Positions 14,811 through 48,455 of a stretch of 64,000 nt of DNA are shown piece after piece (the stretch's first letter is position 1; the number at the start of each line of letters is the position of its first letter). The notes under the pieces are model-generated. The model made no database searches. It saw nothing but the letters and a program-made list of their open reading frames with translations, and was not told the DNA's origin. The DNA is taken from NCBI RefSeq assembly GCF_965363235.1, contig NC_134849.1, positions 49,050,122-49,114,121 on the forward strand, written 5' to 3'. The translations under genes were made by a program, and so were the position numbers. This DNA comes from Mytilus galloprovincialis (Eukaryota > Mollusca > Bivalvia > Mytilida > Mytilidae).

Positions 14811-17800
14811 ATGTATGGAACTTATGCATATTCGAATGGCGCCAAGGTTCTTGGAATATTAGTTCCGTTGTTTCTGACTATAGCGTTAGTTATGATATGT
14901 GTTGGTATAGGATTGCCATACTGGATCATTTTGGGAGAGACAAATTATGGGTTATTCCAAGTGTGTAACAGTACCATGTTTACACAGTGTTTCACCTCGG
15001 TGTCATATTTTTCGAACTATACAAACAACAGTAAGTACTTGTAAACTACTGATACAAATACGGGGTTTTCTTAACAGAATTAACAACACGTCACAAAGGA
15101 GGAAGACAATAATTTCTATAAGCAGATACATGTACGGAAGGGAAATAGAATAGTATCGATCATTTAAAACATATAGATAAAGAAACGTACCAGCCATTCA
15201 CTACGTATTAAGCCTGCTTCTCATTCCTTAACTTTTATGCTATATGTATGTTTTAAATATTTGAATTTTCTTTACATCGCAAATGGATATTTGTCACTCG
15301 TACCATTTTGAGGAGAATTTGCGTCGTATGAATTGTTCGCTTTTTACAGTAAGATAAGTCTGTTAACCAATTACCGATTTCATTCTGCTTCTCTGCACTT
15401 AATACAAGTTGTTATCCTTAGCCGATTGTTGATTGGAACTATAGAATAATATCCGTCCGGGGTTTAAAGAATAAAGAATAATAGGCAAAATGTACAAAAT
15501 AAATGGCAGAGAATAAAGAAGAGAAACATATGAAAATTATAATAGAGAATGATGGGTGATAAGAATATAAAGAATACAGAATAATCATGGCCAAAAAATA
15601 CAAAATGTTTACACCGAAAACTATACACGACAAAAGGAACCATTTTTCGTTGACTATTTAATAGTTCATTTTCCTGTCTGTTATGACGATGTAGATTTTA
15701 AAGTCATAAGAAACCTCAAATTAAAAAAAATAATGCAGATGTTTTTTTTATAACTCAATGGATAGTTTTCATTATAAAACTTATGTACATATACTTTTTT
15801 CTGACGAAAATTCTTTAATTTGTTCATATTTAGAAGAATTTTAATTGCTTCCTTCCAGGAAGGAATTCCCGGACATATTTTCCGTATGCAAAGTGACCTC
15901 AGTGTGACCCTTCTCGTAAAAATCCGGTGATTGCAACACGCATGGATGTCCTTAAAATAAACTATTATCTGATTGTACATTTTAAACACGTGCTAGATAC
16001 CCATGCTTTTTTGTTGATTGTTGACAAACAGGTGACAATCGTTAAACTTCGGCTTCAAAACACGAACTTTTTAATTACCTGCCATATTTTCAAAACAACA
16101 CTGACCGATTGAAAAACCAATTATGTGTGTCTGTAATTCAGTGGTTGGTGTTTTTAGCTGTATTGCGTTGATTTCGGGGCCTTTTATAACTGACTGCGGT
16201 ATGGGTTTTGCTTATTTTTGAAGGCCGTACGGTGATCTGTAGCTGTTAATGTCTATGGCACGCCGTTATTATATTTGTTCAATTTCGAGATATCTTATTT
16301 AGTTAAATAAGATATCTTATAAACTAATTGAGATATCTCATAAACTTTTAGAGATATCTTATTTATTAATTGAGATATCTGATTTATTAAATTAGATATC
16401 TGATTTATTAAATAAGATATCTTATATATTAAATAAGATATCTTATTAAAATGTTTATAAAGATATCTTATTAAATATATAAGATATCTTATTTAAAATA
16501 TAAGATATCTCTATTAATTTATAAGATATCTCTATTAATTTATAAGATATCTTATTAACTATATAAGATATCTTTTATATAGTTTATAATAGAGATATCA
16601 TATTTACTTAATAAGATATCTCCATAAGTTAATAAGATATCTCTATTAGTTTATAAGATATCTCTATTAATTAATAAGATATCTCCATTAGTTTATAAGA
16701 TATCTCTATTAATTAATAAGATATCTTATAAAGTATGTATTTAAAAGATATCTTTATAAAGAAGTAAGATATCTTATATACTTTATAAGATATCTTATTA
16801 ATTAATAGAGATATCTTATTAACTTATAGAGATATCTTATTAACTTATAGAGATATCTTATAAACTAATAGAGATATCTTATAAACCAATAGAGATATCT
16901 TATTTACTTTCAAATTAAATAAGATATCTTATAAAAATTAAAGATATCTTAATACTTAATAAGATATCTTGTTAAATAAGTAAGATATCTTCAAATTTGA
17001 ATAAATATAAAAACGGCGTGCCATAAATGTCTGTATCATTAGGTTTCTTGTTGAGAGTTGTTTCGTGGGCAATCATACCACATGTTCTTATTAACATTTC
17101 ATTTTTAATGATTTTGTGATCTATAACAATAGACCGCTGATACCTTGTCATGATTTTCAAAAAGCCTTGTTGTTGTCTGTGTATGGTACATTATAAATCG
17201 GTTTCTATTATTTGTGTTAGGATCTGGTTATCGTTTTGATACTAGTATTGAATCATCTCTGTTATTCTCAGATATCTTCTGAGAAATGGTCAAACATTTA
17301 TAAAAAGGGTACCAAGAAAATTTTCAGTTGAAATAAAACCTTGTATACACTGTATACATTTTAACTATAAATAGCATGTAGTTGTTATACATAATGTATC
17401 TTTTGATTAAACAAGTTGACACATACCAGCAGCTTAATTGTATCCTTAAGACATAGAGAGAAAGAATATTGATCTTAATAATATGCGGATTTTTTTTGTA
17501 TATTTCTCCCCCGGCTATACTGTTCCTGAATAGAAATCTTATAAAGAATTAGTTTGGAAACACTCAGTGCACTCAGACGGAATGAGTCTATTGGATTGAC
17601 CTTATAAATCTTAAAATAAAACGAAAAAAGATTAGAATACTTGAACTTTGTGATAATTACCAAAGTGTTCATGTATCCTCTAACCGACATTGATTGAATT
17701 CAGGAATTGATCAATACCATCAGTTGATTTCTATTGAAGGAATGGATATAACACAGATATAAACAAGTCATGCTTAAGTGTTACTTGGCTAAGTTGTCCA

Positions 17801-19823
17801 CATATGCTTGATATAAGTAATTATGCAAAGTATTAAAAACAAATCAATAAATTCGTCAATTATAATGAATTAAAGTTTGTATTGCAGGTTTAACGTTTTG
17901 GTACACGATGATTTTCCTCGCATGTTTTGGAGCATTGTTTATGCTAATATCTGAGATTTGTGTGTTCATCTACCCCTGCTATAAAGTCATTACAACACAG
18001 AAAATCATCGTAGGAGTGGTTTTAGTTATATTCTTGCTACTTGGGTGTAAGTAATAATATATGATATATAATGTCTTTTTTGACAAACCACCATGTCCAG
18101 TAACCTAAGGTGAACAAAATACTACACTGGCATGAGAAATGACCAACCATGTCTGATAACATATGGGGAAAAATCATACACAGATATGAGTAACGACCAA
18201 CAATGTCTGGGAACATTTGGGGAACAAAAACATACACAGAATATATGGGGAACAAAAAACATACACAGATATAAGTAACGACCAACCATGTCTGGGAACA
18301 TATGGGGAACAAAAAACATACACAGATATGATTAACGACCAACCATGTCTGGGAACATATGGGGAACAAAAAACATAAACAGATATGAGTAACGACAAAC
18401 CCTGTCTGGGAACATATGGGGAACAAAAAACATAAACAGATATATGTAATGACAAACCCTGTCTGGGAACATATGGGGAACAAAAAACATACACAGATAT
18501 GAGTAATGACAAACCCTGTCTGGGAACATATGGGGAACAAAAAACATACACAGATATGAGTAACGACAAACCCTGTCTAGGAACATATGAGGAACCAAAC
18601 ATGTCTGGGAACATATGGGGAACAAAAAACATACACAGATATGAGTAACGACAAACCCTGTCTAGGAAAATATGGGGAACAAAACATGTCTGGGAACATA
18701 TGGGGAACAAAAAACATACACAGATATGAGTAACGACAAACCCTGTCTGGGAACATATGGGGAACAAAACATGTCTGGGAACATATGGGGAACAAAACAA
18801 TACATGGACATGAAATGCCTCTGACTCTATTTATCACAGGTTGAATACAAAGCGATGGTAAACGCTCATACACTTCTATACGATCATAGCACGCAAACAT
18901 TGTTCGTCTGACGTAAAAAAAAAAAAAAAAAAAGTAAAAATATGATGAATTTTCATTTATCTCCATGAGTTAGAGTGGAAAAAAAAATTTACTCAATTTC
19001 GATAGTTATGATATATGTATGCACGTTTTGGTATGTGTACAGTAAATAAACATTTAGAAATATCCTGTTAACATAAAGATACATCGGAGGCAAGAGGAAG
19101 GCAACCCGTATAACGTTTATATTACACTTGTGTGTAAGGTTACAGACAACACATGAGTTAGAGGAAGGCAATCCCGTATAACGTGTATACGCTTGTGTAT
19201 AAGGTTACAGACAACACATGAGTTAGAGGAAGGCAATCCCGTATAACGTGTATACGCTTGTGTGTAAGGTTACAGACAACACATGAGTCAGAGGAAGGCA
19301 ATCCCGTATAACGTGTATACGCTTGTGTGTAAGGTTACAGACAACACATGAGTTAGAGGAAGGCAATCCCGTATAACGTGTATACGCTTGTGTGTAAGGT
19401 TACAGACAACACATGAGTTAGAGGAAGGCAATTCCGTATAACCTGTATACGCTTGTGTGTAAGGTTACAGACAACACATGAGTAAAAAAAGCTAATTTCT
19501 TTATTTTTGTTCTTTTAGCACAACATATTTGTTTAATTTCTACATTTGTTTTACATCTTTGATCATTTTGTTATCTTACATTTTTTAGCCATTATAGAAG
19601 GTGATAATTATATAGAACATTAAATTTTTCAGCTTTCTTCATCTTATCAGTAAATGGACTTATGATAGGAGTTGCAGTAGAGTCTGCGCTGACAAAAACA
19701 ACAGCCAGTCAGGCTTTCAATTACGTGGGATGGACATTTTACTTATGTGGAGTAGGGGGAATACTTGCTCTTGTAACGTCTATTATGTTTATAATTCATC
19801 TCTATCTGGCTGTTTACCATTAG
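14811..19823 (+). CDS. claudin/PMP22-superfamily tetraspan membrane protein, gene A (3 exons)
   Basis: Exons are 14811-15030, 17888-18046 and 19633-19823, joined at GT-AG sites (A|GTAAGT, GCAG|GT, T|GTAAGT, TTTTTCAG|CT), giving 189 residues. Both introns are phase 1. Membrane segments are at about residues 11-36, 79-103, 113-135 and 157-184. The first extracellular loop carries the superfamily signature W38, GLF 47-49, C52 and C60 (claudins have W-GLW-C-C). It also has N-glycosylation sequons at N53, N69 and N72. Claudin relatives act at the plasma membrane in epithelial junctions or as channel or receptor subunits; which role applies here cannot be told. The C-terminus is only a few residues past helix 4 and shows no PDZ-binding motif. 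Introns are swollen by a palindromic element and two minisatellites. It is paralogous to gene B at 28883-37788. Confidence 0.82.
15440..15640. repeat. purine-rich AAAGAATA repeat in intron 1 of gene A
   Basis: Loose repetition of AGAATAAAGAA, AGAGAATGATGG and AAAGAATACAGAATAA. Similar sequence occurs at 24115-24320 (AAAGAATACAGAAATAA), so this is a dispersed family rather than chance low complexity. Confidence 0.45.
16130..17090 (+). repeat. common mussel repeat, split by an insertion
   Basis: 16130-16253 (GGGGCCTTTTATAACTGACT, GAAGGCCGTACGGTGATC, GTTAATGTC) continues at 17026-17085 (AATGTCTGTATCATT, GTGGGCAATCATACCACATG). The same sequence is uninterrupted at 38985-39070. This defines the empty site of the inserted element at 16254-17025. 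Confidence 0.75.
16254..17025. mobile_element. 772-bp element: 12-14-bp TIRs around an AAGATATCTT palindrome array
   Basis: The termini are TATGGCACGCCGTT and its inverse AACGGCGTGCCATA. The flanks are AATGTC(T) at 16248-16253 and 17026-17031, and the host repeat reads through correctly if one copy is removed. The interior is about 33 copies of AGATATCT, each inside an imperfect palindrome such as AATAAGATATCTTAT, at a mean spacing near 21-22 bp. Nothing is coding. It lies in intron 1 of gene A. The GATATC core suggests hairpin or cruciform potential, or a protein-binding array; that is inference. Confidence 0.8.
18075..18812. repeat. 57-bp minisatellite in intron 2 of gene A (~12 copies)
   Basis: Unit about 57 bp: ACATATGGGGAACAAAAAAC, then ATACACAGATATGAG, then TAACGACAAACCCTGTCTGGGA. 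Several shortened units occur at 18590-18790. Because 57 is divisible by three, several minus-strand frames stay open (18037-18966) with a repeating PHMFPDRVCRYSYLC pattern; these are by-products of the repeat. Confidence 0.9.
19092..19485. repeat. 65-bp minisatellite in intron 2 of gene A (~6 copies)
   Basis: Unit of 65 bp: ACATGAGTTAGAGGAAGGCA, ATCCCGTATAACGTGTATAC, GCTTGTGTGTAAGGTTACAG. The first unit (19092-19150) is the most diverged; the later ones differ by one to three bases, implying recent expansion. Confidence 0.9.
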
Positions 19824-20059
19824 TTATATTACGTGTATTTTTTTTAGAATGCAATATTAATCGACCGATAAAGGAGCGAAACAACAAATCTACGATTCAC
19901 CTCAAGATGTTCTTCAGGAAATGTTGACATTTGAAATAGGAAACAAATATGATTGCAATACTACTAAATTAAATTTAATGCATGTTAGGGAAGGGGTATT
20001 TTCAGTACAATAATTCATCTATAAATATTGGTTATGTAGGCCGTGTGAACATATAATTA

Positions 20060-20262
20060 TAAAGACAACACATTTTAGCTTTTCTACCTCAGGAATAGAT
20101 TACCTTAGCTGTATTTGGCAAAACTTTTAGGAATTTTGGTCCCCAATGCTCTTCAACTTAGTACTTTATTTGGCTTTTTAAATCGAGTGTCACTGATGAG
20201 TCTTTTGTAGACGAAACGCGCGTCTGGCGTAAATAAAAAATTTAATCCTGGTATCTATGATG
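20060..20262 (+). repeat. ACGAAACGCGCGTCTGG-family repeat, single copy
   Basis: GATTACCTTAGCTGTATTTG, CCCAATGCTCTTCAACTTAG, GTCACTGATGAGTCTTTTGT and AGACGAAACGCGCGTCTGGC in the order seen in the tandem units at 32950-34190. It lies 240 bp beyond the stop of gene A and contains AATAAA (about 20231-20236), which could serve as a polyadenylation signal for that gene. Confidence 0.7.
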
Positions 20263-20289
20263 AGTTTATTTGATGAATTAATTGCAGTA

Positions 20290-20445
20290 TTTCAGAAAAA
20301 AGACGAAATAGATCAGTAAAAATGTCTACGGGATAAAAAGGTAAAATCACAAAAAATACCGAACTCCGAGGAAAATTCAAAACGGAAAGAAAGCCCCTAA
20401 ATGGAAAAATCAAAAGATATAACACATCAAACAAATGTATACTAT
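20290..20445 (-). repeat. interspersed repeat family F, minus copy
   Basis: AAATCACAAAAAATACCGAA, CTCCGAGGAAAATTCAAAAC and AACACATCAAAC match, reverse-complemented, the family at 22085-22260. A minus-strand frame at 20255-20539 runs through it and is not a gene. Confidence 0.6.
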
Positions 20446-20573
20446 ACAGATATATCGCTTTAAAGCTCCGCCCACTGCCGGACTGAGTATCATGTATGAA
20501 CCTGCGTGACCTCAGACAGAATGTGTATTGCAGTCGCATTCTAACGACGTATCAATGGCGAATTAACGATTAG

Positions 20574-20700
20574 GAGATAACTGTATTGTATTTTAAGCTC
20601 CGACGGCATCAATTGGGGATTTGATGGTCGCAAATTAAGTTTACTGGCGACGCGTTTTCAATTGATGCCGTCGGAGCTTAAAATACAATATTGTTATCTT
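20574..20700. repeat. strong palindrome, ~42-bp arms
   Basis: GAGATAACTGTATTGTATTT at 20574 runs on to CGGCATCAATTG at 20614 and is matched in reverse by 20659-20700 with about three mismatches. The loop is near 44 bp. A second, short palindrome AGCATCAATTGTCAATTGATGC lies at about 20788-20809 and repeats part of the same arm. Likely a snapback MITE. Confidence 0.75.
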
Positions 20701-21372
20701 CATTCTAATGAAACTGACAGAAAACTACGTTAAAACATGTATTAAAAATCTGTCACACGTTGTCTGCGCTTGCGCGTAAGTCCCATAGCATCAATTGTCA
20801 ATTGATGCCATGTAAATAAGTGACGTTATCCAATCAAAATGAACGTTACAAACGTTGTTGCATTAGAATTACTTTTTTACGTTCTGTTTGTTTTTAAACA
20901 TTTCTTTAGAGTAATAAGAATCACACCAATTTTCTGATAACATACACACCTGAACAGCAGTCTTTTCTACGATGACAACTATCGATTTCAAAACTTGAAT
21001 ATGTATGATTTTGTAACAAAAACAACCATGTCAATTTCAGCATGCATGTTTGGTGAATGTCGAGTCTGAAGCGTAGTGAATGGTGGAAAATTCGTACACT
21101 TCTGTTTCAAGTTGGACAATGTTTTGTTATTTGTTTTTACTGTTGAAATTAGTTGTTATGTTAAAATAGATAATTATTCACCTTGAGCGATGTATTATTG
21201 TTGACCATTCGAGATTCTTTTTATGCGAACCGGTCTTCAGCTGAATGTGTGAATACTGTATCGTATTACTACACGGGCCTCAAGGGATTTCAAATCGAAA
21301 ATAAATGCAAAACATGTGTTTTTGTGTCTTTCAAAACACAAATAATATACAGAATTAATTGCAGGATAAAAC

Positions 21373-21517
21373 CAATAACTGTTTAGTGTCTTTAAATATA
21401 AGCTGTATTTGTACTCGGCTCGAAACAGGTGTAATAGCTCGCTAAAAGCTCGCATACACCTTGTTTCCTAGCCTCGTACAAATACAGCTGATATTTAAAG
21501 ACACTAAACAGTTATTG
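21373..21517. repeat. 145-bp hairpin element, ~45-bp arms
   Basis: CAATAACTGTTTAGTGTCTT at the left end and its inverse AAGACACTAAACAGTTATTG at the right end continue inward (AGCTGTATTTGTAC against GTACAAATACAGCT) to a centre of TAGCTCGCTAAAAGCTCGC. No clear target duplication. A transcript would fold into a long stem. Confidence 0.75.
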
Positions 21518-23218
21518 TATATGTCATATACAGTCATTGACCTGATATCACTTTTCCTCATGAATATCTAAATAGAAATTGCCGAAATTATGATTAATTA
21601 TTCATACGACCTATTCAACCTGTTCTTGTTTCCAATGTATACAACGACTCAAACTTATTTCTATTGCAATTTTTAGAGAAAAAAAACGTATTTCACTTGT
21701 TAATATTTTTGGTTTGCAAACTATAAATCATTATGTTTTATGCTTATTGTTGATATTTGAGTTCATTTTCAAACAAATTCGTTCACCATCGATTGCGGGT
21801 TTCAACAGGTAATGTATATTTCATTGTTTTGTATATTTCTCCGCCTGCATGATATGAGGCACTTTTTATAAAAGGGGGAAGTTTCCCAATATTTAAATCA
21901 AATAATAACATTAACACATTGAACAACATTTGAATATGTGTTTTGTTAGATTGCAGTATAAAGACAATAATAGTGCATTGACTTGACATATCAACGATAC
22001 AAGGATTCGGCCCGAAACGTGGAAAAGCTATTTATTCGTATTATTTGATTGCGTTTAAAACGCCTCAGTTTAAAAGTGTATAACACCATTTTCTACATTT
22101 GAAAATGCCTGTACCAAGTCAGGATTATGACAGTTGTTGTCCATTCGTTTTTGATGTGTTTTGTCATTTGATTTTGCCATGTAATTAGGGACTTTACGAT
22201 TTGATTTTCCTCTGAGTTCAGTATTTTTGTGATTTTACTTTTGACAAGTGGGCGTTACAGACGAACGTACACATAATCTGACCCAGTCAATTGATAACCT
22301 GAACGGACCAAGAAATGTTCTTTTACACGCTGCTTTGAAAATGATTCTATGTCAATCAGTAAAAAAAATATAAATTAAAAAAATGTAAACCCCATCATTA
22401 TGAAAAATGGTATTTATTTAAGATACTGTACGCTCGTATGGCTGATTATGCATAATTTGGTTGTTCAATTTCTTCTCAACTAAAAGATGATAGAAAAAAT
22501 CTTCAACTATATTGAGTTGAAACAGATAACATTAATTTGGACAATTGTTTTAACGTCGTATGAATGCAATAACAGTAACCATCTGTATATGTTAAAAACA
22601 CGCTAAATTTAAGCATTAAAAGTTTTTAAAAAATCTGTTTAATGTCAAGTTTAATAAATCTAGTGTGTTCGCTTTCTGTAGACTCGCGTATTTCACTGAT
22701 TCGTCTATTTTAATCCACAACAATGATGATGTCGCATAACAGTAAGTCATGTGATTTCCCGTATATATACCAGATTGGTTACAGTTTTAATCATCAGAAT
22801 TTATATGCCAACCAGTACCATTACTTACCCTAAAGATTCACAGGATACACGCACTAGGATTGAATCAATGTATTGTGTCCAGATGTATTTTCCGAATAGT
22901 TTCTGTTATAAGTAAAAATTATTACTACGACGTGTGGCTTGGTTGAATTAGTACGCTTTTACAAAGACGCATTCATATAATTTCCCCTTGAATTCATTTA
23001 GAAATCTAGCTTTTTTGGAACCATAAATATACTTAATAAATTGGTAAATTTTAATATTGTCTTTGGCTGCAAAAGAGTGTGTGTCTTAAAATTTAATTCC
23101 TTCATGCCACCCTTTATAATTCAGTGAATTTCAATGATTTATAGCTTAGAAAAGACATACCTACACAATTGTTACACTATATTATATTGAAAGATAATTA
23201 TGACAATTTAGAAACAAC
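21518..23218. other. intergenic; one repeat fragment, otherwise nothing recognised
   Basis: 22085-22260 is a plus-strand copy of family F (ACAGTTGTTGTCCATTCGTT, GTATTTTTGTGATTTTACTT). The remainder is AT-rich unique-looking sequence with no protein-like frame. Confidence 0.5.
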
Positions 23219-24114
23219 ACGGCCGACACTCGGCTAACCGAGAGATTGGTCGGTTAATCTCTATTGAGTATGCGGCTATATCGGCGGTTGGTCTGTTAAT
23301 CGGGTTGGCTAAAGTCTGTTAATCAGGTGTTATCGAGAAAATCATTGAAAGTTCAGCATGTTTCATTGTATAAATTTCTAAATATACTTTCCTCATAAAA
23401 AGTATTCATGTCTAACAAAACAATTCAATGTACTGAATTCAATGGTGTAATTATAATTTTTCTTGCTTCGATGTACGATCTATAAAATGAAAAGGCGGGT
23501 TACTCATCAATAAATTTATACACATTTAACACACATAAAATGTACACACAATGACACATTGGTTAAATTTACTTGCATTCAATATTTTAAACATAAAAAA
23601 AACAAAGGCATTATATTATGTTTGTTAACCATATTGATATCATTGTGTGAAAAATCTACACGAAAATCTGTATTTTGGTGACATAAATCAATCTTTATTT
23701 AAAACCTGGTCTGTTAATGGGTCGGATGTATAAAATCCGGTCTGTGAATTGGTCTGTTAAGAGTTATGAATGGCAATAAAAGTATAATTTTATTGCTATA
23801 TGGGGTGTTATCGGATCAAATGAGTAGGCTCAAGACGAGCGGCTAAAATATACGAAAACAACACATAAGCAATGAAACATAAGATATACGGAAACAACAC
23901 ATGAAATTGAAAATTGATAAAAATGGTTTCAAAAAGTGTAATATTAAAGTAATATTAATTTCATCCAAGAATGATCGCATATATCATGTTGATTCTGTTT
24001 AATTGTCATGAATGACACAAATTTGTCAACTTCATTGGTAACCAGTATATAAATCAGAGATAAACGTCGTAATGTAACTAAACATCAGTAAGTAAAATAT
24101 ATTGGGATGACAAA

Positions 24115-24320
24115 ATATGAAAAATAAAGAAAGAATAATGAGTAAGATAAATAAAATGTAGAAAAAAATGACATAACAATTTAAAGAATACAGAAATAAA
24201 CAATACCCCCAATCTGGACTCTCATGGTATACACGAGAATCTGGATGGAAACGCAGAATATAGAATAATATATAAGGACAGTAGAGAGTGATACATTGCT
24301 AAAAACGAGAGAAAAATAAT
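24115..24320. repeat. purine-rich AAAGAATA repeat, second copy
   Basis: AAAATAAAGAAAGAATAATG, TTTAAAGAATACAGAAATAA and CGCAGAATATAGAATAATAT resemble 15440-15640. It lies within the 23-25 kb element. Confidence 0.45.
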
Positions 24321-24426
24321 ACTTGTTTAAGAATACACACGTGAAACACCAATGGCTGTTGAAACAGTAACGGATTGCGATGTACTTATATTGGTGACAA
24401 ATTTTAGAAGTTTACATGCGGACAAC

Positions 24427-24650
24427 TATGGTGGCAGGTTAATGCCAATTTGCGTTTTAGCGCTTTAGCGTTTTCGCCTTACATATTCTATATGGCGAAA
24501 ACGAATTGCGAAGTCAAAAACGCGAAAACGCGAAACCGATTTCTCGTTTCGACTTCGCGATTTCGCCTTTTCGCGATTTCGTGTTTTCGCCCTATAGAAT
24601 ATGAAAGGCGAAATCGCGAAAACGCGAAATGGACTTCACCGGCCACCATA
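24427..24650. mobile_element. 224-bp MITE rich in GCGAAAACGCGAAA, nested
   Basis: The termini TATGGTGGC and GCCACCATA are flanked by GACAAC(T) at 24421-24426 and 24651-24656. Inside, TTTCGCCTTACATATTCTAT is matched in reverse by ATAGAATATGAAAGGCGAAA, and short GCGAAAACGCG words alternate on both strands. A frame at 24450-24707 is incidental. Its ends and its 6-7-bp target duplication have the same geometry as the elements at 16254-17025 and 45517-48021. Confidence 0.78.
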
Positions 24651-25671
24651 GACAACTGTAGTTCTCCTCTGCACTTATGTAGAAAGGAACTAAACGGAAT
24701 AAAATGAATTGAAACTTAAAATAACCAAATGTAGCTGCATTCGCTCCTTTCCGTTAATTCTTTAGAGTGATTTGTAAACAACATATGATTAAGTTATAGA
24801 AGAAAAGAACCAATTGGATGATGCTGACGAATTAGGGTTTAACGTTCAGTGACAAATATCATGTTCATATGTGAACGAGAACACGTTATATGTACCCTGT
24901 GTTGTATTAGAAAGACACTTTCAGTCGGAATTGAGAACGTGCTACTTCGAACATACACCAATATTAAGGCTGATTGAAAACGTCAATAAAAAATTCATGC
25001 AAATTCGAGAGGCCAATCAATATCACGCTATTTTGAAATGACACACCCTTCAATAAAATGCAAAGAAAGTCGAAATAAAAATGCTCTTCTTAGGATACTG
25101 TGGCACCGTATTGTCATTTTTGTTTACTCAGGAACATCTCATTCTTAAATTTTTCAAGGGGAAAATATAAAGGTAGCAAAATTATTGTCGTGGCTAAATA
25201 ACTCTTAACTGACACAATTTCAATTGTCCAACCCATTAACAGACTGTATTCCCATAATTTTCACTAAAACGTGGTATTATTCACGTTATTTTATAATTAT
25301 GAAATATTTACTAATGTCAATTTATTTTTTAGAACCACAGTACTATTTTTTGTCCTTTAAATGATATCTAAATTTGTTTGTTTCGCCTTTTATTAAAAAA
25401 ATTGTTATGCGTATAAGCATAAATACTACATACTTGCGCGACGCCTTTTAGTTTTACTGAAAACTGCGCAGACTAAGAAATGTTTTTACAAGTACAAAAT
25501 GTTGTATGATAGATATCATTTTCTCAGACACTTTTATTTTTTTGATTTGGTTCTTATAACATGCCATTAACAGACATATAACCAACCCGATTAACAGACC
25601 AATCGCCCATATAGCCGCATACTCAATATAGATTAACCGACCAATCTCTCGGTTAGCCGAGTGTCGGCCGT

Positions 25672-26788
25672 GAACAAATCTTAAAGATATAGCAGAGATG
25701 TACAATAAATGTTATGTTGAGTGTTGGTTAATTTAATTGTTGAACATGTTTCAAGAGATTATATATATGTGTGAGTTGAACTTAAGAGACTCTAAAAACG
25801 CATGACTTTGTGATTTGATGTTAATCCGGTTACTTGTCATTATAAATAATTTTGCTTTTTGCAGTTTGACATATTGTGTTTTGGAAACGACCGGGACTTA
25901 ACCTTTACGATAAATAGTTTTGATAGCTCTAAACGAGTTTCGATACTTACACATCCTTGGCGTTCACATATTTTCGCTTTGAATGTTCCTCATGAAATAA
26001 ATCAAGAAAATCATTTTGGACGCATAAGGTGTTAAACAACCATTGATCATGGATTTTCCCTTTTTAGTCATTGTTAAATTTGCACGTTTCAAAGCATTTT
26101 GCAGAATAAAATTGAGAAAGAAAATGGGGTATGTGTCAAAGCGACAACAACCCGACCATAGAGCAGACAACATCCGACTGTATCTTTATTTCAAATTAAG
26201 AAATACTTGGCATGAGTAAAGTTTTATCTTGTCCAATACTATAGACAAAAGTTCATATACAAGCGGTTTCTAAAATACTTCATTGGAAGATACCAACCCT
26301 TGATGATAATTCCATTTTAGCTTCATAAATAATGATCTGGAAGTATAGATTCTAGGTACTGACGTTGTTTTTCATCTTAATTACGTGTTCAAGCTCACCC
26401 TCATAACGTGAATCGGTGTACTAACATTAATTCAAATTGAAAACTCTCTACCAAAAAATCTCACAACAATACTTATTTATCAGAATAAAAGCCTAAAAGA
26501 AATCATTGCATAAACTCTTAAAGGTTCTTTTTAAAGAATTGAAAACAAGAATCTTATTATTTCCATCTTACTCTTTATGGGTTTTTTCTGAAATGAAATG
26601 TCTTAAACTTGTTTGAAACTTTTCTGATAACGAATTTGAAGTATTTCGGAATACTATAAATGTAATGTTTAGTAGTTAATCATTCAAAAATTCAAGATTG
26701 TATATTTAGTCAACATCTTACTGTATGTATATTTGTCAATGAAAGTTCACAATTTCTGCCTTAAATAGTCAGTTTAGAAATCTTATCA
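25672..26788. other. intergenic; short family G fragment only
   Basis: 26108-26175 (GTGTCAAAGCGACAACAACC, GACCATAGAGCAGACAAC) is a truncated copy of the family at 4955-5235 and 63540-63860. The rest shows nothing I can name. Confidence 0.45.
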
Positions 26789-36303: not shown

Positions 36304-36343
<40 letters not shown>

Positions 36344-37788: not shown

Positions 37789-37842
37789 TCTTTCTCTTTC
37801 CTTTATTCCTTTCGCTAAATTAAGACTGTACACGTTTTTCAC

Positions 37843-38966
37843 ACAGAGTGCCGATGGAACATAGTAGAATTCATATCAACAGTAATATCGGTGCAATATC
37901 TCCATTTGGAAGCAATTATGATAACAAATAGAACCAAACTTTTATTCAATATTGGATAATCATAATAGGTTTTGGAAATATTTATCGATCGGTTATTAAA
38001 GGTAACGCGAAAATGTATCTCCAAAGAGGATAAATAAATCAAATTAGATTTTACTTGTCCTGTATATGTTAGTAGTCGTGTGAGTATTCAAAACAAATTT
38101 CGTTTTACCTATCCTTTCATACTACAGTTTATTCAGTAAAGTGAACAGTGAAATGTATTGAATATAATAGTTCCTATTCATTACATTCATCAAAAGATAT
38201 AGTAAAGCTATGATTCATATGCGTCACAGAATGAACTCCATTCATTTCGAGTATGAATTTAAACATCAAAATAAATGAATGTCAAACTTTAACATAATGT
38301 TATCAAAATCAGTTTAAAATGATTTCGGAAAATAACAAACTTAATGATTTTTGTTCAATTTTTGATAATACAAAAGTTATTTCATATCAACTTTATTGTC
38401 ATGAAACATAAACAAAATAACAACGAAACAGAAAAAAAGATATGTGATAGATTTACAATATAACAATATTCAATAGCCATGTTACGATGAAACCTATGTT
38501 TATGCCCAGTTCTAGTAACCTGGAAGACCATAATTTCAATGTGTCAAAAGAAGGCGTGGTTAAATATATAAAACAATTTCTGTTCGTCAGGGAAATGAAT
38601 GGAATGTTCATCAACTAGTTGTATATCTTAAGTTGATTTTGTCCGATGTTCTGGTTAACCTTAAAATTCAGAATTAAAATAGATTCATCTTCGATGAATT
38701 TGTAGGTCTTGCACATGTTCTCGGGGAATTTTAATGTAACTACCATTTTCTATTTCAAGACCATAGTCACTTATGCGAACTGTGTTAGATTAATGCGATG
38801 TACTGTATCAAACTTTAAAACATATTGACATCAAGTGAGGCATTAATTAAATGACCAATCAACCTAAGTAGTAAAACAATAAGTTTATGTCGATAACACA
38901 TATATAAAGATGGTTGCTACTCTATTCGTTCAAGAGATTAAATGTTTGAACTAAAAAAGGCAACAA
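37843..38966. other. 5' flank of claudin-like gene B, nothing recognised
   Basis: AT-rich sequence that should contain gene B's promoter and any upstream exon. I see no recognisable TATA box, repeat or protein-like frame. Confidence 0.35.
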
Positions 38967-39074
38967 ACCCATGCGTACCCCACCGTACGGTGACCTATAG
39001 TTGTTAATGTCTGTGTCATTCTGGTCTTTTGTGGATAGTTGTCTCATTGGCAATCATACCACATCTTCTTTTTT
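38967..39074 (+). repeat. common mussel repeat, 3' part
   Basis: CCACCGTACGGTGACCTATA, GTTGTTAATGTCTGTGTCAT and TTGTCTCATTGGCAATCATA. It ends directly at the Helitron-like element. It also serves as the intact reference for the site interrupted at 16254. Confidence 0.7.
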
Positions 39075-41371
39075 AGCTCACCTGGCCCGAAGGGCCAAGT
39101 GAGCTTTTCCCATCACTTTGCGTCCGGCGTCCGGCGTCGTCGTCGTCCGTCGTCGTCCGTCGTCCGTCGTCGTCCGTCGTCGTTAACTTTTACAAAAATC
39201 TTCTCCTCTGAAACTGCTGGGCCAAATTAAAAAAAACTTGGCCACAATCATCATTGGGGTATCTAGTTTAAAAAATGTGTGGCGTGACCCCGCCTACCAA
39301 CCAAGATGGCCGCCATGGCTAAAAATAGAACATAGGGGTAAAATGCAGTTTTTGGCTTGTAACTCAAAAACTGAAGCATTTAGAGCAAATCTGACAGGGT
39401 AAAATTGTTTATCAGGTCAAGATCTATCTGCCCTGAAATTTTCAGATGAATCGGACAACCTGTTGTTTGGTTGCTGCCCCTGAATTGATAATTTTAAGGA
39501 AATTTTGCCGTTTTTGGTTATTATCTTGAATATTATTATAGATAGAGATAAACTGTAAACAGCAATAATGTTCAGCAAAGTAAGATTTACAAATAAGTCA
39601 ACATGACTGAAATGGTCAGTTGACCCTTTTAGGAGTTATTGCCCTTTTTAGTCCATTTTTAACAATTTTTCGTAAATCTTAGTTATCTTTTACAAAAATC
39701 TTCTCCTCTGAAACTACTGGGACAAATTAATCCAAACTTGGCCACAATCATCATTGGGGTATCTAGTTTAAAAAATGTGTGGCGTGACCCGGCCAACCAA
39801 CCAAGATGGCCGCCATGGCTAAAAATAGAACATAGGGGTAAAATGCAGTTTTTGGCTTATAACTCAAAAACCAAAGCATTTAGAGCAAATCTGACAGAGG
39901 TAATATTGTTCATCAGGTCAAGATCTATCTGCCCTGAAATTGTCAGATGAATCGAACAACTAGTTGTTGGGTTGCTGCCCCTGAATTGATAATTTTAAGG
40001 AAATTTTGCTGTTTTTGGTTATTATCTTGAATATTATTATAGATAGAGATAAACTGTAAACAACAATAATGTTCAGCAAAGTAAGATCTACAAATAAGTC
40101 AACATGACCAAAATGGTCAGTTGACCACTTTAGGAGTTATTGCCCTTTATAGTCAATTTTTAACCATTTTTCGTAAATCTTAGTAATCTTTTAGAAAAAT
40201 CTTCTCCTCTGAAACTACTGGGCCAAATTTAACCAAACTTAGCCATAATTGGGGTATCTAGTTAAAAAAATGTGTCCGGTAACTTGGCGAACAAACCAAG
40301 ATGGCCGCCATGGCTAAAAATAGAACATAGGGGTAAAATGCAGTTTTTGGCTTATAACTCAAAAACCAAAGCATTAAGAGCAAATCTGACAGGGTAAAAA
40401 TTGTTTATCAGGTCAAGATCTATCTGCCCTTAAATTTTCAGATGAATCGGACATTCCGTTGTTGGGTTACTGCCCCTGAAATGGTAATTTTAAGGAAATT
40501 TTGCTGTTTTTGGTTATTATCTTGAAAATTATTATAGATAGAGATAAACTGTAAATAGCAATAATGTTCAGAAAAGTAAGATCTACAAATAAGTCAACAT
40601 GACCAAAATGGTCAGTTGACCACTTTGGGAGTTATTGCCCTTTATAGTCAATTTTTAACCATTTTTCGTAAATCTTAGTAATCTTTTAGAAAAATCTTCT
40701 CCTCTGAAACTACTGGGCCAAATTTAACCAAACTTAGCCATAATTGGGGTATCTAGTTAAAAAAAATGTGTCCGGTAACTCGGCCAACAAACCAAGATGG
40801 CCGCCATGGCTAAAAATAGAACATGGGAGTAAAATGCAGTTTTTTGCTTATAACTCAAAAACCAAAGCATTAAGAGCAAATCTGACAGGAAGTAAAATTG
40901 TTGATTAGGTCACGATCTATCTGCCCTGGAATTTTCAGATGAATCGGATAATCGGTTGTTAGGTTGCTGCCCCTGAATTGGTAATTTTGAGGAAATTTTG
41001 CTGTTTTTTTTTGTTATCTTGAATATTATTATAGATAGAGATAAACTGTTAACAGCAATAATGAACAGCAAAGTAAGAACTAAAAACAAGTCACTATGAC
41101 CAAAATAGTCAATTGACCCCCTAAGTAGTTATTGCCCTTCATAGTCAATTTTTAACAATTTTCTTAAAATTTGAAGATTTTCAATAACATTTTCCACAGA
41201 AAGTACTGTTATAGATAGAGATAATTGTAAGCAGCAAGAATGTTTAGTAAAGTAAGATCTACAAACACATCACCATCACCAAAACACTATTTTGTCATGA
41301 ATCCATCTGTGTCCATTGTTTAATATTCACATAGCCTAAGGTGAGCGACACAGGCTCTTTAGAGCCTCTAG
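39075..41371 (+). mobile_element. Helitron-like non-autonomous element with ~500-bp internal tandem units
   Basis: It opens with AGCTCACCTGGCCCGAAGGG, whose CTGGCCCGAAGGGCCAAGTGAG region folds as a hairpin, then a GTCGTCCGTCGTC tract. The ~500-bp unit follows with starts near 39189, 39689, 40191 and 40685 (marker ATCTTCTCCTCTGAAACT; also CCAAGATGGCCGCCATGG), and a diverged tail. It closes with GGCTCTTTAGAGCC, a hairpin, then T and CTAG followed by T, the 3' end expected for Helitrons and their non-autonomous relatives. No Rep/helicase frame is present. The family is abundant in bivalves as I recall. Confidence 0.7.
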
Positions 41372-42276
41372 TTATATTTTAAAAAGCATATAGAAGAAGT
41401 TCATTGTATAGAAGGAAACAGTGATGATGAAACAAGTTTCTTCCTCCCAAACAGAATTCTTCACTCAATATTTATTTTGCAATTATTCGTAAGGACACTA
41501 TTGACTATTGAATCACGACTTTTGTTCTGGAAAATTTATAGTTATTAAATAAACAGACAGTGAAGATTTAATGTTATCATTAATCATTATATTGCATACT
41601 TAAGAAACAAGAATTTAAAGATTTTGCGTAAATAAGAAAGCAAAGTCCAAATACAAGTACCTCCTTTTGTTTGTCTACTAACTTATATCTCACACAAACA
41701 CACCATTACTGCTGTCAACACTAAGCTACACAAGAGTAGATCAAGAAAGGAAAACAAAAAAATAGAAAAATATTCAGCCAAGCCTTTAAAATTAAGTCAC
41801 TGGGGCAAACTAAATGTGCGTTATTTGGTATTATTATACTTCATGTTGAAATGCCAGATTTTAATTGGCTAATACGAGCTCGAGGGCGAAATTTACTCTA
41901 TCCCATAGCTGAGCAAATATATATTTCTTTTGAATGTCACCCTCTCGTCCAGACCAATCAAAAATCTATAATTTAAAGGACAATGAATTGGATTAACTTC
42001 AATTTATTGAAGACAATGCTTAAGTTGTACGTGTTGATTCAGATTCTATTACTTGGCTGTCAATGTTTTATCGAAGTAGCATCTGAATCGGCTCTATCAA
42101 CCTCTCCACTATGTGGGATTTATATAATGCATGTTAAATGCGATTAAAATTATAAAGAGATTGTACATAGGCATGAATGTCCAAAAACCGCGACATGATA
42201 TAGATAATGTGAGAATAAAATTATTGTTATGTCTTCAAACGAATTATCATATTTTTTTTAATGATTTCCCTTCATT
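41372..42276. other. nothing recognised
   Basis: AT-rich sequence without a convincing frame or repeat. Confidence 0.35.
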
Positions 42277-42500
42277 TTCAAGCTGAACCCCCTGTTATTT
42301 CAAGCTGAACCCCCTGTTATTTCAAGCTGAACCCCTTGTTATTTCAAGCTGAACCCCCTGTTATTTCAAGCTGAACCCCTTGTTATTTCAAGCTGAACCC
42401 CTTGTTATTTCAAGCTGAACCCCCTGTTATTTCAAGCTGAACTCCTTGTTATTTCAAGCTGAACCCCCTGTTATTTCAAGCTGAACCCCCTGTTATTTCT
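42277..42500. repeat. 22-bp minisatellite (~10 copies)
   Basis: Unit AAGCTGAACCCCCTGTTATTTC, 22 bp, with a CCCC-to-CCTT (GAACCCCTTG) alternative. Nearly identical units imply recent origin. Confidence 0.93.
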
Positions 42501-44590
42501 TAATTCATGTAAGGATTTGACTAAAATCCTTGATTCGTGAAACAAAAATATGATTTCAATGGTAGATCAAAACTAGAATATCAGTTTCAATTCCCTTGCA
42601 CTGGATGTCATAGTACAATAATTACTAACTAATGTAGCGATTAAACTGATTATTGTCATTTCCTTGATTTGTTGCCATTTTATTCAGCTTGCAAGACGTC
42701 AAACTTATGTTATGGACAAACGATATACCAGAAAAACGTGCCGTCTCTATTGAAATAAGTTTATATGTTTAAAGTACATGTGATCTACATCTGTTACTCA
42801 ATAAGATCGTCCTAATATTAATAAACGAAGAAAGTTTTTGTATCATTTAGGTCTATACATACTGATTTTCATAATCGTATTTCAAAATGTAGTTAGAAAA
42901 TCGAATGTTTGTCATGAAGGGCAATACAGTAGAAAGTAAAAGCATTCAAATAAAAATGAATTCAAGTTGTGAGATTTAAAGAGTTTTTGAGTGTTTCAGG
43001 AAAATGAAATAAAAAAGTGTGAATTTCAAAGCAATATGTAGAATCTAGCACCTTATATTGGCGTATTGATTCAGGTTTATATGAAGATGAATAAACTATA
43101 CAAAGAATGTACAAACTGCACGTGTTCTAAGTTTGTACGATGAAACCCCAAACAATCGGTAAATAACTGCTAGATTATTATATTTCACAATTGACCAATA
43201 CAACAAGGACAATGGACAAATGACTGACAAAAACATCGTAGCATAAGGTATCTGTAAAAAAAATCTGAAATATAAATCTGTATACAAATAGTTGCCTCTG
43301 CTGTCGGATTGTTAGCTACGTGTTCGTGTCTCGCATTATGTGTTTTCCGTCGCAGGCGAGACAAATACTATAAAATCAATGTTTATTATGTGCATTTTAT
43401 AATAGCGCTTATGTCCCTACACCTGTCTAACATGAAACTTTTACCACTTCTGATCGTCTAACCGTACAAACAGAGAAATTCTATAAAAAAAAAACCTTTT
43501 CTTTTCGCAAACCTACCTAATTATCTATTTTATGGTGTTTTCACATATATGTGCGTCACTCAAGTTTTAAAAGTGATAAAGCTCATACATTATGAATTCA
43601 ACAATTGTAGTTGTGACGCAGTTATAACCAAACAAGATTTTGTGCATATTGCCTTTTAAATCCCCCACCCATTGATATCTTTTATGACGAATATTTTCCT
43701 AATAACAAACACCGATTGATCTCATATGCAAACAATAAAGGTAATAACACGTATACATCTTTAACGGTGGTTTAATTTAATTAAAATCGATTTAAAGATC
43801 GAATCGCAGATGTTATCAAGTTACTATGTAATGTGTTTTATGCCTTACAACTGCAGAGCAAAATAAAGGTTCACTTTTTCTATCTCGATCAAATCAAATT
43901 AATATTGGAAGTTCAAAAGAAATTCAGAAGGCATTTACATACTAAAGTACTTAAGCAAATAGTAAAAGATATCTGGAGGGAATCATCAAAATAGAGAAGG
44001 AAACAATCACATCGGTAAACCATAGACAGCATTGTGTAAGCTAAAAGTACATATATCTCCATGTAATTTCAGTTCACATTCAACAAAGTACTTTGCATCA
44101 CATTACAAAAAATAATTTTCCAAGTGTTCACCTTCAAAAACCACATGTGTGTGTAATACAGTTATAGGCAAAACTAAACGATCAATCATTATATTGAAAT
44201 ATATTATAATTTTGAACACAGCAATATTTAACAATGGTTCCTAAAAAGCTTCAGGAAGACAAAACTAGATAATATTTAATTTTGAAAAAGTTTATCATAG
44301 AATAAGATTTGAATACAGCAAAAACAAACCAATGGCACAGACATCAGACAGAAAGACGGCTGAACCTTTTAAAACGTTTTAGTTTAATTTGACAAACTAA
44401 TCAAATTATTATCTTTTTATAGTTCTACAAATGTGATTTGAATTTTAAAAGAATGCTGTTCGTTTCAACCTTTGAGTGGAACTTACTTTTGGAAAGCCGA
44501 AGCGGTATATAAATATGGCATAAAGTTGTCATTACTTTTTATTAAAGTTTTTAGATATGCATTGCATGGTATTACATGTAACATTGTCGT
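42501..44590. other. nothing recognised
   Basis: About 2 kb of AT-rich DNA. The short minus-strand frame at 43096-43287 has no family signature. I see no element termini. Confidence 0.35.
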
Positions 44591-44594
44591 TATG

Positions 44595-44770
44595 TTTAGT
44601 TTCTTTTGTTACCTATTCTAACATCGTACTCGGACTTCTTTTAAACTGAGTTTTACTGTGGTTAATTTTGTGTGTTTGTATTTTTCTACACCGCCTAGTG
44701 GTATAGAAGGGGGGGGGGTTGAGACCTCATAAAACATGTTTAACTATCCGGGATTTTTACCAAACTTGGA
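44595..44770 (+). repeat. interspersed repeat fragment shared with 63430-63570
   Basis: TCTTTTGTTACCTATTCTAA, CATCGTACTCGGACTTCTTT, TAAACTGAGTTTTACTGTG and GGGTTGAGACCTCATAAAAC recur in the same order and orientation at 63437-63575. Confidence 0.6.
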
Positions 44771-44780
44771 CAGAAGCTTC

Positions 44781-45074
44781 TTACGCGGAACCCTTACAAA
44801 GACTGTAAATTGTGACTGCCTCTAGAATAGGAGGATAATTTGGACAGGGACAAAAAACTAAGTCTTGCGCACAACATGCGGTCCATTCTAAGAGTTGAAG
44901 CAAGGGTTCGTAGTGTGTAGATAGCATGCCAATCTCTTTACGCAAGATATCATATATAGGTTTTAACTTGACAAGGCTACATATATACACATGCAATCCA
45001 TCTAAACTGGTGTCACACTCTGGTAATGATTTAACTGCCTGCTGGGAGGAGACCACGAGTGACCATATGTGCAT
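44781..45074 (-). CDS. unrecognised open frame, possible exon or element fragment
   Basis: 97 residues that read more like a real protein than its surroundings: mixed composition, six cysteines including CCAQDLVFCPCPNYPP, and a helical stretch LVKLKPIYDILRKEIGMLS. I do not recognise a family. The start is arbitrary: in-frame sequence upstream could extend it, and no splice sites were established. It abuts a dispersed repeat at 44595-44770, so it may belong to a transposable element rather than a host gene. Confidence 0.28.
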   Translation of the reverse strand: MHIWSLVVSSQQAVKSLPECDTSLDGLHVYICSLVKLKPIYDILRKEIGMLSTHYEPLLQLLEWTACCAQDLVFCPCPNYPPILEAVTIYSLCKGSA

Positions 45075-45555
45075 TTCCCAGTAACCCTTGGGGGTTCCTC
45101 ATCGATAAATGGTGTCCTCTGTATTAACTTGAGTATTAGGTAGACGAAATAGATCTGTGTGACCCCACCCAACACTGTAAATTACATTTTTATCCTACAT
45201 TAATCTGTTGATGTGGTCCCTTAATGGGTTGTCTAATTAATTTAGAAAATATGTTTTATTTTTATTGTGAGGTATGTTATCTATTTCTCGCAAAAAGATA
45301 CATTTTTTCGTATCACACAGCTAGAAATGCTTTACGAAAAATTAGTTTATTCAGCATTTTGAGACAATATTACGGAATTTTCATTGGTTATTGGTTAGGT
45401 GAATTTCAAAGGTATAATAATGAATAATTGTTTCACTGATTATGGTTTCATGTTTGTCAGCTCTTTTTGTCTCAATAACTTTATCTACATGTTTGAATGT
45501 TGTTTGATCATAATTGTACGGTGGCAGAATGCGGCCATGAAAGAAAAAAAAATAT

Positions 45556-46120
45556 GTTGTTCCCTCAAGATACTATGTCGTTCCCTCAAGATGCTATGTC
45601 GTTCCCACATGATAGTTATCTCGTTCCCTCAAGATACTATGTCGTTCCCTTAAGATAGTTATTTCGTTCCCTCAAGATACTATGTCGTTCCCTCAAGATA
45701 GTTATCTCGTTCCCTCAAGATAATTATCTCGTTCCCTCAAAATACTATGTCGATCCCTCAAGATGTTATGTTGTTCCCTCAAGATACTATGTCGTTCCCT
45801 CAAGATGATATGTCGTTACCACAAGATAGTTATCTCGTTCCCTCAAGATACTATGTCGTTCCCTCAAGATAGTTATCTCGTTCCCTCAAGATACTATGTC
45901 GTTCCCTCAAGATAGTTATCTCGTTCCCTCAAGATAATTATCTCGTTCCCTCAAGATACTATGTCGTTCCCTCAAGATACTATGTCGTTCCCTCAAGAAT
46001 TCGTTCCCACAAGATAGTTATCTCGTTCCCTCAAGATACTATGTCGTTCCCTCAAGATAGCTATCTCGTTCCCTCAAGATACTATATCGTTCCCTCAAGA
46101 TAGTTATCTCGTTCCCTCAA
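45556..46120. repeat. 21-bp array, left arm of foldback (~26 units)
   Basis: Two main unit variants, ending ATACTATGTCG and ATAGTTATCTCG, alternate irregularly, with rarer ATGTTATGTTG units. Confidence 0.9.
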
Positions 46121-46389
46121 CATAGCAATACAATTATATTGATTTATTCTTTATTTCCAACTTCGAAACGGTGGAGTAAGACGTGGAGTTACTTCCAATT
46201 CACTTTTTAATCAAATGCGGAACAATGCAAGAACGAGAAATTAAGACCACCGACACGAAACACGGAAAATAAATAAGGGGAAATACGAAGCACGCACATC
46301 GAACCAAACACGAGAAAACGAGAAATAAAACACCAAATCACGAAAACACGTAAAATGAAAAGGCCGAAAACGTTGCACGAAAATAACCC

Positions 46390-47060
46390 TTTACCACCCT
46401 TAGAAAATAAAATTAAAAATGAGCCACAAAATGTTTTATCATCTCCTATTCCTGGATTTCTAATACATTAACCTAACTGTTTGTGTTGTACATGTGCATA
46501 TGTATGTAATCAGTATCTTCCTTAGATTTAATTTTCAAATGTTAAAAGGGTGAAAAATAATTCCTTTTCTGTGTATCCATGGCAACATTCTTCATTTATT
46601 TACCATAACATATTGCAAAAAGGGGGTAAACATGCATGTCACATATCCCCCAAAATTTGGATCAAACTAAAATTTCAATGCCTTTGAGTGATACCTTTTT
46701 AGACACTGTTTTCATAAATCTTCCTAATGATCAAATAAAAAATGGGTGTCTTTCGCCTATTTTTTTCGTAAAATCTAATCACAAAGTTCGTGCGACAAAA
46801 ATTTGGAAAAAAACATTACAAAAATTGCCGGACCAATGTATGGTATGGACATACATGTACAAATACGGACTCTCATACAGAAAACAGCCTATATTACATG
46901 CATTATATGATCTTGATGTTCATATAAACCCAATACGAAGGCTATTTTAATACTCAGCTATCCAAAAATGAATTTTATTGCACACTAGCTCTTATATTTG
47001 AAAAATCCTCAGGGGCCAAAATGCGAAACTACACATCTAACTGTGGAGTGCTACCTTTAC
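46390..47060. repeat. family B/Harbinger-MITE-related core of the foldback
   Basis: 46570-46720 resembles 340-500 and 8070-8220 (ATGGCAACA, TTGAGTGATACC). 46855-47060 resembles 36880-37066 (AATACGGACT, GTTCATATAAACCCA, GTGCTACC end). So the two dispersed families share sequence and may be one lineage. A plus-strand frame at 46636-46950 is incidental. Confidence 0.5.
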
Positions 47061-47061
47061 T

Positions 47062-47225
47062 GGGACTCCGGGATCGGGTGTTTTTAAGCTCGGGATTTCG
47101 GGATTGACCCTTTCGGATCCGGGAATTCTTTTTTTCGGATTACGGGACGTCGGGATTTACTTTATTTAAATTCGGGATTTCGAGATTTCGTGTTTTTAAG
47201 CCCGGGATTTCTGGATCAGGAACCC
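47062..47225 (+). repeat. CGGGATTTCGGGATT low-complexity tract
   Basis: Repeated CGGGATTTCGGG, TTTTTAAGCTCGGGATTT and TTTTTAAGCCCGGGATTT words over about 160 bp, much more GC-rich than the surroundings. Confidence 0.55.
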
Positions 47226-47370
47226 TCCTATCCCCTCTCAGTTATTCTCTTTAAATACAGAATTATTATATCATTATTATTATGTAAATATTCTACTTTT
47301 GGGATCTGGCCACGTCTACAGTTCCGCTTCGAAGGGCGAAATGAATCATATATCAATACAAATTTAAAAT

Positions 47371-47985
47371 CTTGAGGGAACGAGATAACTATCTTGAGGG
47401 AACAACATAGTATCTTGAGGGAACGACATAGCATCTTGAGGGAACAACATAACATCTTGAGGGAACGACATAGTATCTTGAGGGAACGACATAGTATCTT
47501 GAGGGAACGAGATAACTATCTTGAGGGAACAACATAACATCTTGAGGGAACGACATAGTATCTTGAGGGAACGAGATAACTATCTTGAGGGAACGACATA
47601 GTATCTTGAGGGAACGAGATAACTATCTTGAGGGAACAACATAACATCTTGAGGGAACGACATAGTATCTTGAGGGAACGACATAGCATCTTGAGGGAAC
47701 GAGATAACTATCTTGAGGGAACAACATAACATCTTGAGGGAACGACATAGTATCTTGAGGGAACGAGATAACTATCTTGAAGGAACGACATAGTATCTTG
47801 AGGGAACGAGATAACTATCTTGAGGGAACAACATAACATCTTGAGGGAACGACATAGTATCTTGAGGGAACGAGATAACTATCTTGAAGGAACGACATAG
47901 TATCTTGAGGGAACGAGATAACTATCTTGTGGGAACGACATAGCATCTTGAGGGAACGACATAGTATCTTGAGGGAACAACATAA
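47371..47985. repeat. 21-bp array, right arm of foldback (~29 units)
   Basis: Complement of the left array. Here a three-unit pattern (AACTATC, AACATC, AGTATC types) recurs, so the right arm shows more regular higher-order repetition than the left. Confidence 0.9.
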
Positions 47986-48455
47986 TTTTTTTTTATTTCA
48001 TGGCCGCATTCTGCCACCGTATAATTGTCATTTCTTTAGAAGCTTTTGTTATTTTTAAATTCAAGAAAAATAGGTTTAAAAATGAGAATTAAATATAGCT
48101 TGATATTTATTTATTATTATTACAAGTATTATTGTTCAAATAAATATACAAAGTTGATTTCCGTTGCTTTATGGATCTTATATAATTTATTTCATTTATG
48201 TCAGTTAAAAGATTTAACAATTTTAAGGTGATCTCCAACTTATTTTATTATTTATCAGATAGTTTCCTCAAATAACCAGGTCAAATCTAAATAGTCCATC
48301 AAAGAATAAACCAGAAACAGATTTTTACTCTAACGGCCATCATTTTTTCTTTTTTTATATTTAGAAATGAAATTAATTAAAATTATTTTATGCAAGTTTG
48401 TCCATATTGTATATGATTATTAATTTAATGATTCTTTATTAAAAGAGAGTTAATA

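Follow-up and report, generated by a model that had tools for sequence, protein, structure and literature searches.

The IS3EU superfamily is among the less studied superfamilies of DNA transposons. Its rust-fungal members are described as having TAYGG..CCRTA ends and 6-bp target duplications, and the same account gives inverted ends of more than 30 bp for fungal IS3EU (PMC12730594). According to a second source, TA..TA ends are constant in complete IS3EU families and 6-bp duplications are usual, and IS3EU and GingerRoot form one lineage (PMC10045372). Long and short forms are described in these two accounts, together with a DDE transposase with similarity to IS481/IS3 (PMC12730594, PMC10045372). 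In another system, the non-autonomous Tetris/foldback elements of Drosophila, inverted ends contain tandem repeats, with tips which are common to another short element (PMC4079207).

The elements presented here share with IS3EU the tips, the 6-bp duplications, the occurrence of long and short forms and the kind of transposase. They differ in having subterminal arrays with a period of 21-22 bp, which the consulted parts of PMC12730594 and PMC10045372 do not mention. With Tetris they have in common the inverted ends with tandem repeats and the tips shared between elements; the Tetris repeats are about 220 bp (PMC4079207). The kind of element is an ordinary one and the novelty lies in the member families: in the literature covered, mostly titles and the first lines of abstracts, we found no description of any of the three.

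Three elements with common tips and 6-bp duplications

The window is the whole 64,000-bp stretch of Mytilus galloprovincialis DNA that was analysed, C12:49050122-49114121 of a 1.385-Gb assembly in 331 contigs. A preliminary description had placed in it three elements with unrelated interiors, each bounded by TAYGG..CCRTA ends and flanked by a perfect 6-bp duplication. Its coordinates and the duplications AATGTC, GACAAC and TAATTG proved exact (Table 1). A scan of the window gave 2487 TAYGG/CCRTA pairs lying 30-20000 bp apart, and exactly three of them, these elements and no others, have identical 6-bp flanks. In all three pairs the inverted ends also agree for 9 bp or more, and over the first 30 bp the two ends agree at 27, 24 and 29 positions in elements 1, 2 and 3, respectively. 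When the right ends were shuffled in 2000 permutations, the three true combinations being excluded, a mean of 1.5 chance 6-bp flanks was obtained, and the combination of a flank with a 9-bp end was seen in 0 of the 2000. The interiors are unrelated as described, and so are the inner parts of the end sequences.

Table 1. Features of the three elements and of the carrier of element 2; positions refer to the window.
Feature	Position	Strand	Remark
Left target duplication of element 1, AATGTC	16248..16253	.	6 bp
Element 1, very probably non-autonomous IS3EU-type, ends TATGGCACGCCGTT..AACGGCGTGCCATA	16254..17025	+	Judged from ends and duplications of the family
GATATC array of element 1	16289..16989	.	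33 palindromes; spacing exactly 21 bp in 25/32
Right target duplication of element 1, AATGTC	17026..17031	.	6 bp
Left target duplication of carrier, AACAA	23213..23217	.	5 bp
Carrier, non-autonomous, CACGG..CCGTG inverted ends (about 105 bp), holds element 2	23218..25672	+	
Left GACAAC duplication of element 2, on the simplest reading arisen once in an ancestral carrier	24421..24426	.	6 bp
Element 2, very probably short non-autonomous IS3EU-type, TATGGTGGC..GCCACCATA, nested in carrier	24427..24650	+	
Right GACAAC duplication of element 2	24651..24656	.	6 bp
Right target duplication of carrier, AACAA	25673..25677	.	5 bp
Left target duplication of element 3, TAATTG	45511..45516	.	6 bp
Element 3, very probably non-autonomous IS3EU-type, ends TACGGTGGCAGAATGCGGCCATGAAA and inverse	45517..48021	+	
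Left subterminal array of element 3	45559..46116	+	GTTCC[CT] words, 21-22 bp apart in 21/24 spacings
Repeat unrelated to family 3, within element 3	46394..47057	.	CCTTTAC direct repeats at borders
Right subterminal array of element 3, inverted	47376..47978	-	GGGAAC words, 21-22 bp apart in 24/26 spacings
Right target duplication of element 3, TAATTG	48022..48027	.	6 bp

Elements 1 and 3 belong to families dispersed over the genome. The 14-base end of family 1 occurs at 218 sites (113 + 105) and the 18-base end of family 3, TAYGGTGGCAGAATGCGG, at 91 (45 + 46), with 0 sites for the reversed-pattern control of either. Family-3 ends are found on contigs C1 and C3-C14; family-1 ends are also on C2. 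A comparison of duplication lengths between families, proposed in the preliminary description, was run on samples of these two, and the length is 6 bp in both. For family 1 we took 20 of the about 35 end pairs visible among 100 matches listed. The duplication is exact over 6 bp in 19 of them and has 3 mismatches in the remaining one, no 7-bp duplication occurs among the 20, and it is likewise exact in the window copy and in a 13-kb copy treated below. For family 3, 18 of 27 distinct pairs are exact (window copy included), 3 have a single mismatch and 6 have between three and five; some of these 6 may combine ends of different copies. An exact duplication is thus absent from 9 of 27 family-3 pairs and from 1 of 20 in family 1. 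At C13:45011850-45014043 a family-3 copy is nested in another family-3 end with GCATTC duplicated, and the uninterrupted form of the end that was hit is present in element 3 of the window, which thereby serves as the empty site.

Forty insertion sites with exact duplications could be reconstructed (21 of family 1, 18 of family 3 and that of element 2). The duplicated bases follow the bias nAHDTn: A stands at position 2 in 23 sites and T at position 5 in 27, G is found at position 3 in 0 and C at position 4 in 1. This near-palindromic target preference, read from 40 insertions nearly all of two families, is common to families 1 and 3 when these are taken separately, with A at position 2 in 13/21 and 9/18 and T at position 5 in 14/21 and 13/18, respectively. 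A T following the duplication in all three elements had led to the suggestion that the duplication might be 7 bp. Over the 40 sites this T is present in only 19 (7/21 in family 1, 11/18 in family 3 and 1/1 for element 2; with the T frequency assumed to be 0.33, p = 0.04). It is therefore at best a weak bias and the duplication is 6 bp.

The transposase and the probable assignment to IS3EU

The preliminary description had asked for a long copy encoding a transposase, and for element 1 such a copy was found at C5:75429127-75442214. It is 13,088 bp long, has the ends of element 1 and the perfect duplication TACGTT, and contains between its ends a match to PF24764 (rva_4, integrase core). The reading frame of this transposase is broken by a stop. 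At locus L081, of which the sequence covers the left end only, there is an uninterrupted frame of 421 aa at a distance of 3.6 kb from another element-1 end; it shares 96% identity with the frame of the C5 copy. Contig C5 also has a second such PF24764 match, at C5:54381059, which is 4.1 kb from an element-1 end (C5:54385172). The L081 protein matches PF24764 with E 6.2e-33; its matches to the NCBI models for IS481 (3.7e-5) and IS3 (1.1e-4) are far below both curated cut-offs. It is 57% identical to another transposase of the genome, at L083, and D158, D217 and E258, which from the alignment are candidate catalytic residues, are invariant between the two. A structure search with a profile of both transposases returned nothing relevant (one lysozyme match, E 0.31). 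PF24764 has 154 matches in the genome, which differ in score and frame length (150 of 394 candidates scored), and 0 matches in 14 control genomes. Of the remaining frames in the 13-kb copy, ten of 76-156 aa have no Pfam match over the cut-off; the TET/JBP and alpha-kinase genes present in fungal IS3EU members were not found among these ten.

In the 13-kb copy the left end contains a GATATC array about 610 bp long and the right end another of about 420 bp, and further inverted repeats adjoin both. The repeat-rich interiors had been viewed as cargo. For element 1 this view has to be given up, since its GATATC arrays correspond to the ends of the long copy, and the best interpretation of element 1 is that it derives from the 13-kb element by reduction to tip and array. 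A short derivative is in this way tied to a transposase-bearing relative, in addition to a 6-bp duplication demonstrated with empty sites.

Two further arrangements were noted in the genome. At C3:82857717-82867478 two element-1 ends 9.8 kb apart are flanked by the perfect duplication GTTTAC; none of the 144 PF24764 places compared is within 25 kb of them. At nine places, among the matches listed, two convergent PF24764 matches are about 12.7-13.4 kb apart, most of them in 436-aa frames: C1:105984419/105997440, C3:9676723/9689920, C3:37033467/37046500, C3:95786237/95799066, C7:45159916/45172665, C7:51844549/51857910, C10:3153130/3166158, C11:27453703/27466771 and C11:65001695/65014742. They look as if one large element had a transposase near each end.

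IS3EU and Dada had both been named as superfamilies to which the elements could belong. The first guess is supported by the agreement with the published IS3EU ends and 6-bp duplications as well as by PF24764 in the long copy; the second has been dropped (see below). We consider it very likely that all three are non-autonomous DNA transposons of the IS3EU superfamily (IS3EU/GingerRoot), with an origin of the kind outlined in the last section. Elements 2 and 3 would then use a transposase of the IS3EU superfamily, and for these we looked for a partner. The 144 listed PF24764 places were compared, within 25 kb, with the 91 TAYGGTGGCAGAATGCGG sites, with 34 further sites of the 15-base TAYGGTGGCAGAATG and with 87 further sites of the 11-base TAYGGTGGCAG, the last two sets being taken from the matches listed (100 places each). 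TAYGGTGGCAG has 626 sites in the genome against 280 for its reversed-pattern control. The same comparison recovered C5:54385172 and both ends of the 13-kb copy for family 1, and no transposase-bearing copy with TAYGGTGGC ends near the listed sites. One of the 91 TAYGGTGGCAGAATGCGG sites, C12:68294501, is near a PF24764 match, and the transposase there is apparently part of another element; the 34 TAYGGTGGCAGAATG sites gave 0, and one of the 87 listed TAYGGTGGCAG sites, C2:80335848, is 19 kb away in the wrong orientation from a partial match. A search with the middle of element 3 gave, among the 40 scored of 5277 candidates, matches only to family-3 copies and to a nested repeat. The partner of the TAYGGTGGC ends may be lost, divergent or beyond the matches listed; alternatively, these ends may be served in trans by another transposase of the IS3EU superfamily.

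On C12 a transposase at L082, at a distance of 4.7 kb from a family-3 end, was considered as partner and rejected, because comparison with L083 points to a separate element which apparently begins with TACGGAAGCG, at about L082:2148 and about L083:2150. The right end and the duplication of that element were not found in L083:2150-9901 or L082:2148-7709. These two stretches are 97% identical over 4.3 kb, and L083 has an uninterrupted frame of 420 aa.

The single transposase of the 13-kb family-1 element could be thought to mobilise all three elements in trans, reading little beyond the TAYGG tip. Families 1 and 3 do agree in tip, duplication length and target bias, and no separate partner of the TAYGGTGGC ends turned up among the matches listed. 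We nevertheless find this improbable. The bases past TAYGG differ between the elements (CACGCCGTT, TGGCAGAATGCGG and TGGCAGGTTAATG) and so do the words of the arrays, the 154 PF24764 matches vary in score and frame length, and the transposase at L083 belongs to an element that apparently starts with the other end TACGGAAGCG. The earlier idea of one transposase family moving all three elements can be kept in the form of one superfamily; the inner ends differ and a partner was found for element 1 only.

That the elements come from three unrelated superfamilies, with tips that are alike by chance or convergence, would agree with their unrelated interiors and inner end sequences. Tip, duplication length and target bias all agree, and this makes such an origin very unlikely, the bias common to families 1 and 3 counting strongly against it. 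Against it is also the result that 0 of the 2000 permutations gave both flank and end match.

Dada elements make duplications of 6-7 bp, and this length is what they have in common with the present elements. Since Dada has tRNA or snRNA genes as its specific targets (PMC8869645) and carries a C/DxxH motif between the second D and the last E (PMC10045372), whereas here the flanks of the sampled copies differ from copy to copy, the transposase matches PF24764 and by eye the stretch from D217 to E258 of L081 and the corresponding part of L083 lack such a motif, membership of that superfamily is scarcely credible.

Element 2 was probably spread by a carrier

The preliminary description treated element 2 as an insertion of its own at this place. 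It is, however, located inside a carrier of 2.46 kb with 5-bp duplications. The best 30 of 40 scored loci (602 candidates) all have element 2 at the identical place of the same carrier; the GACAAC duplication is exact in 20 and mutated in the others. Both ends could be located in 21 carrier copies, and in 18 of these the 5-bp duplication is exact, its sequence mostly differing between copies. A 27-base flank joined across a single GACAAC, as it would be before the insertion, has 307 matches in the genome at no more than 3 mismatches (148 + 159), counting the 27 bases irrespective of their surroundings, against 0 for the control. Among 100 matches listed 3 are exact, and nearly all of the others have C where the insert-bearing carriers have T (TGCAG versus TGTAG).

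These data are explained most simply by a single insertion of element 2 into one lineage of the carrier, which afterwards spread it. A direct jump of element 2 into the window from elsewhere would account for the perfect GACAAC duplication found here, and can be practically dismissed in view of the 30/30 loci at the same place in a carrier with 5-bp duplications of its own, the 307 joined flanks, and the finding that none of the 30 loci shows element 2 at an unrelated site with another 6-bp duplication. Element 2 is a clean case of a transposon spread by a transposon of another kind, and it is a warning that a duplication seen in a window need not correspond to an insertion event there.

Transib and RAG-like elements have CAC.. 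ends and 5-bp duplications. The carrier is like them in both respects, and we take it to be Transib- or RAG-like by its ends and duplication length only, as a lead and not as a classification. Two carrier copies (L057 and L065) have the same deletion immediately after element 2, by which GACAAC abuts CAATTGG; this shared deletion is a marker of a carrier sub-lineage.

Subterminal arrays and a possible mechanism

A feature absent from the preliminary description is that the repeats of elements 1 and 3 have the same period, 21-22 bp, with unrelated words. In element 3 the GTTCC[CT]/GGGAAC words are in inverted orientation at the two ends. The period of element 2 is 8 bp and not 21 bp, and in the first 850 bp of the transposase-bearing element at L083 there is no 21-bp array, so the arrays are not universal. 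A 193-bp family-3 copy (L033) with a perfect duplication has an array at one end only, so that an array at each end is perhaps not required, unless one was lost after insertion. A period of two helix turns thus recurs in two families with unrelated words and is not found in every element seen.

The course of events which we propose is as follows. A DDE transposase related to the bacterial IS481/IS3 transposases would bind the ends of the element, excise it, presumably by cut-and-paste chemistry, and join it to the strands of a target with a 6-bp stagger, with a preference for nAHDTn; repair of the gaps would produce the 6-bp duplication. Element 1 would have originated from the 13-kb transposase-bearing element by loss of everything except the TAYGG tip and the GATATC array. 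Element 3 would be of similar design, each end having a tip and an array with a period of 21-22 bp; the words of its arrays differ, and its middle part contains a further repeat. Element 2 would be a short relative which made one insertion into an ancestral carrier of the 5-bp-duplication kind, and the carrier would later have brought it to this window among other places.

The arrays may bind the transposase. The further proposition, that unrelated words repeated every two helix turns inside both ends are transposase docking arrays gained independently in two IS3EU families, is put forward tentatively, and we regard it as rather doubtful. The common period does give a simple and testable idea of how a transposase could keep its grip on long repeat-rich ends. 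If the arrays were docking sites, non-autonomous copies would succeed by retaining tip and array, and IS3EU ends would keep on supplying such genomes with short satellite-like DNA.

The middle of element 3 contains another, nested repeat. Window positions 46150-47340 have 19 other full-length matches with 93-98% identity, all at listed family-3 end places, and family 3 looks young. For about 46394-47057 there are in addition 14 scored matches outside family 3, at 93% (40 scored of 5277 candidates). Four of these outside matches stand in a row about 1.4 kb apart at C1:77586979-77591859, an arrangement resembling a tandem array.
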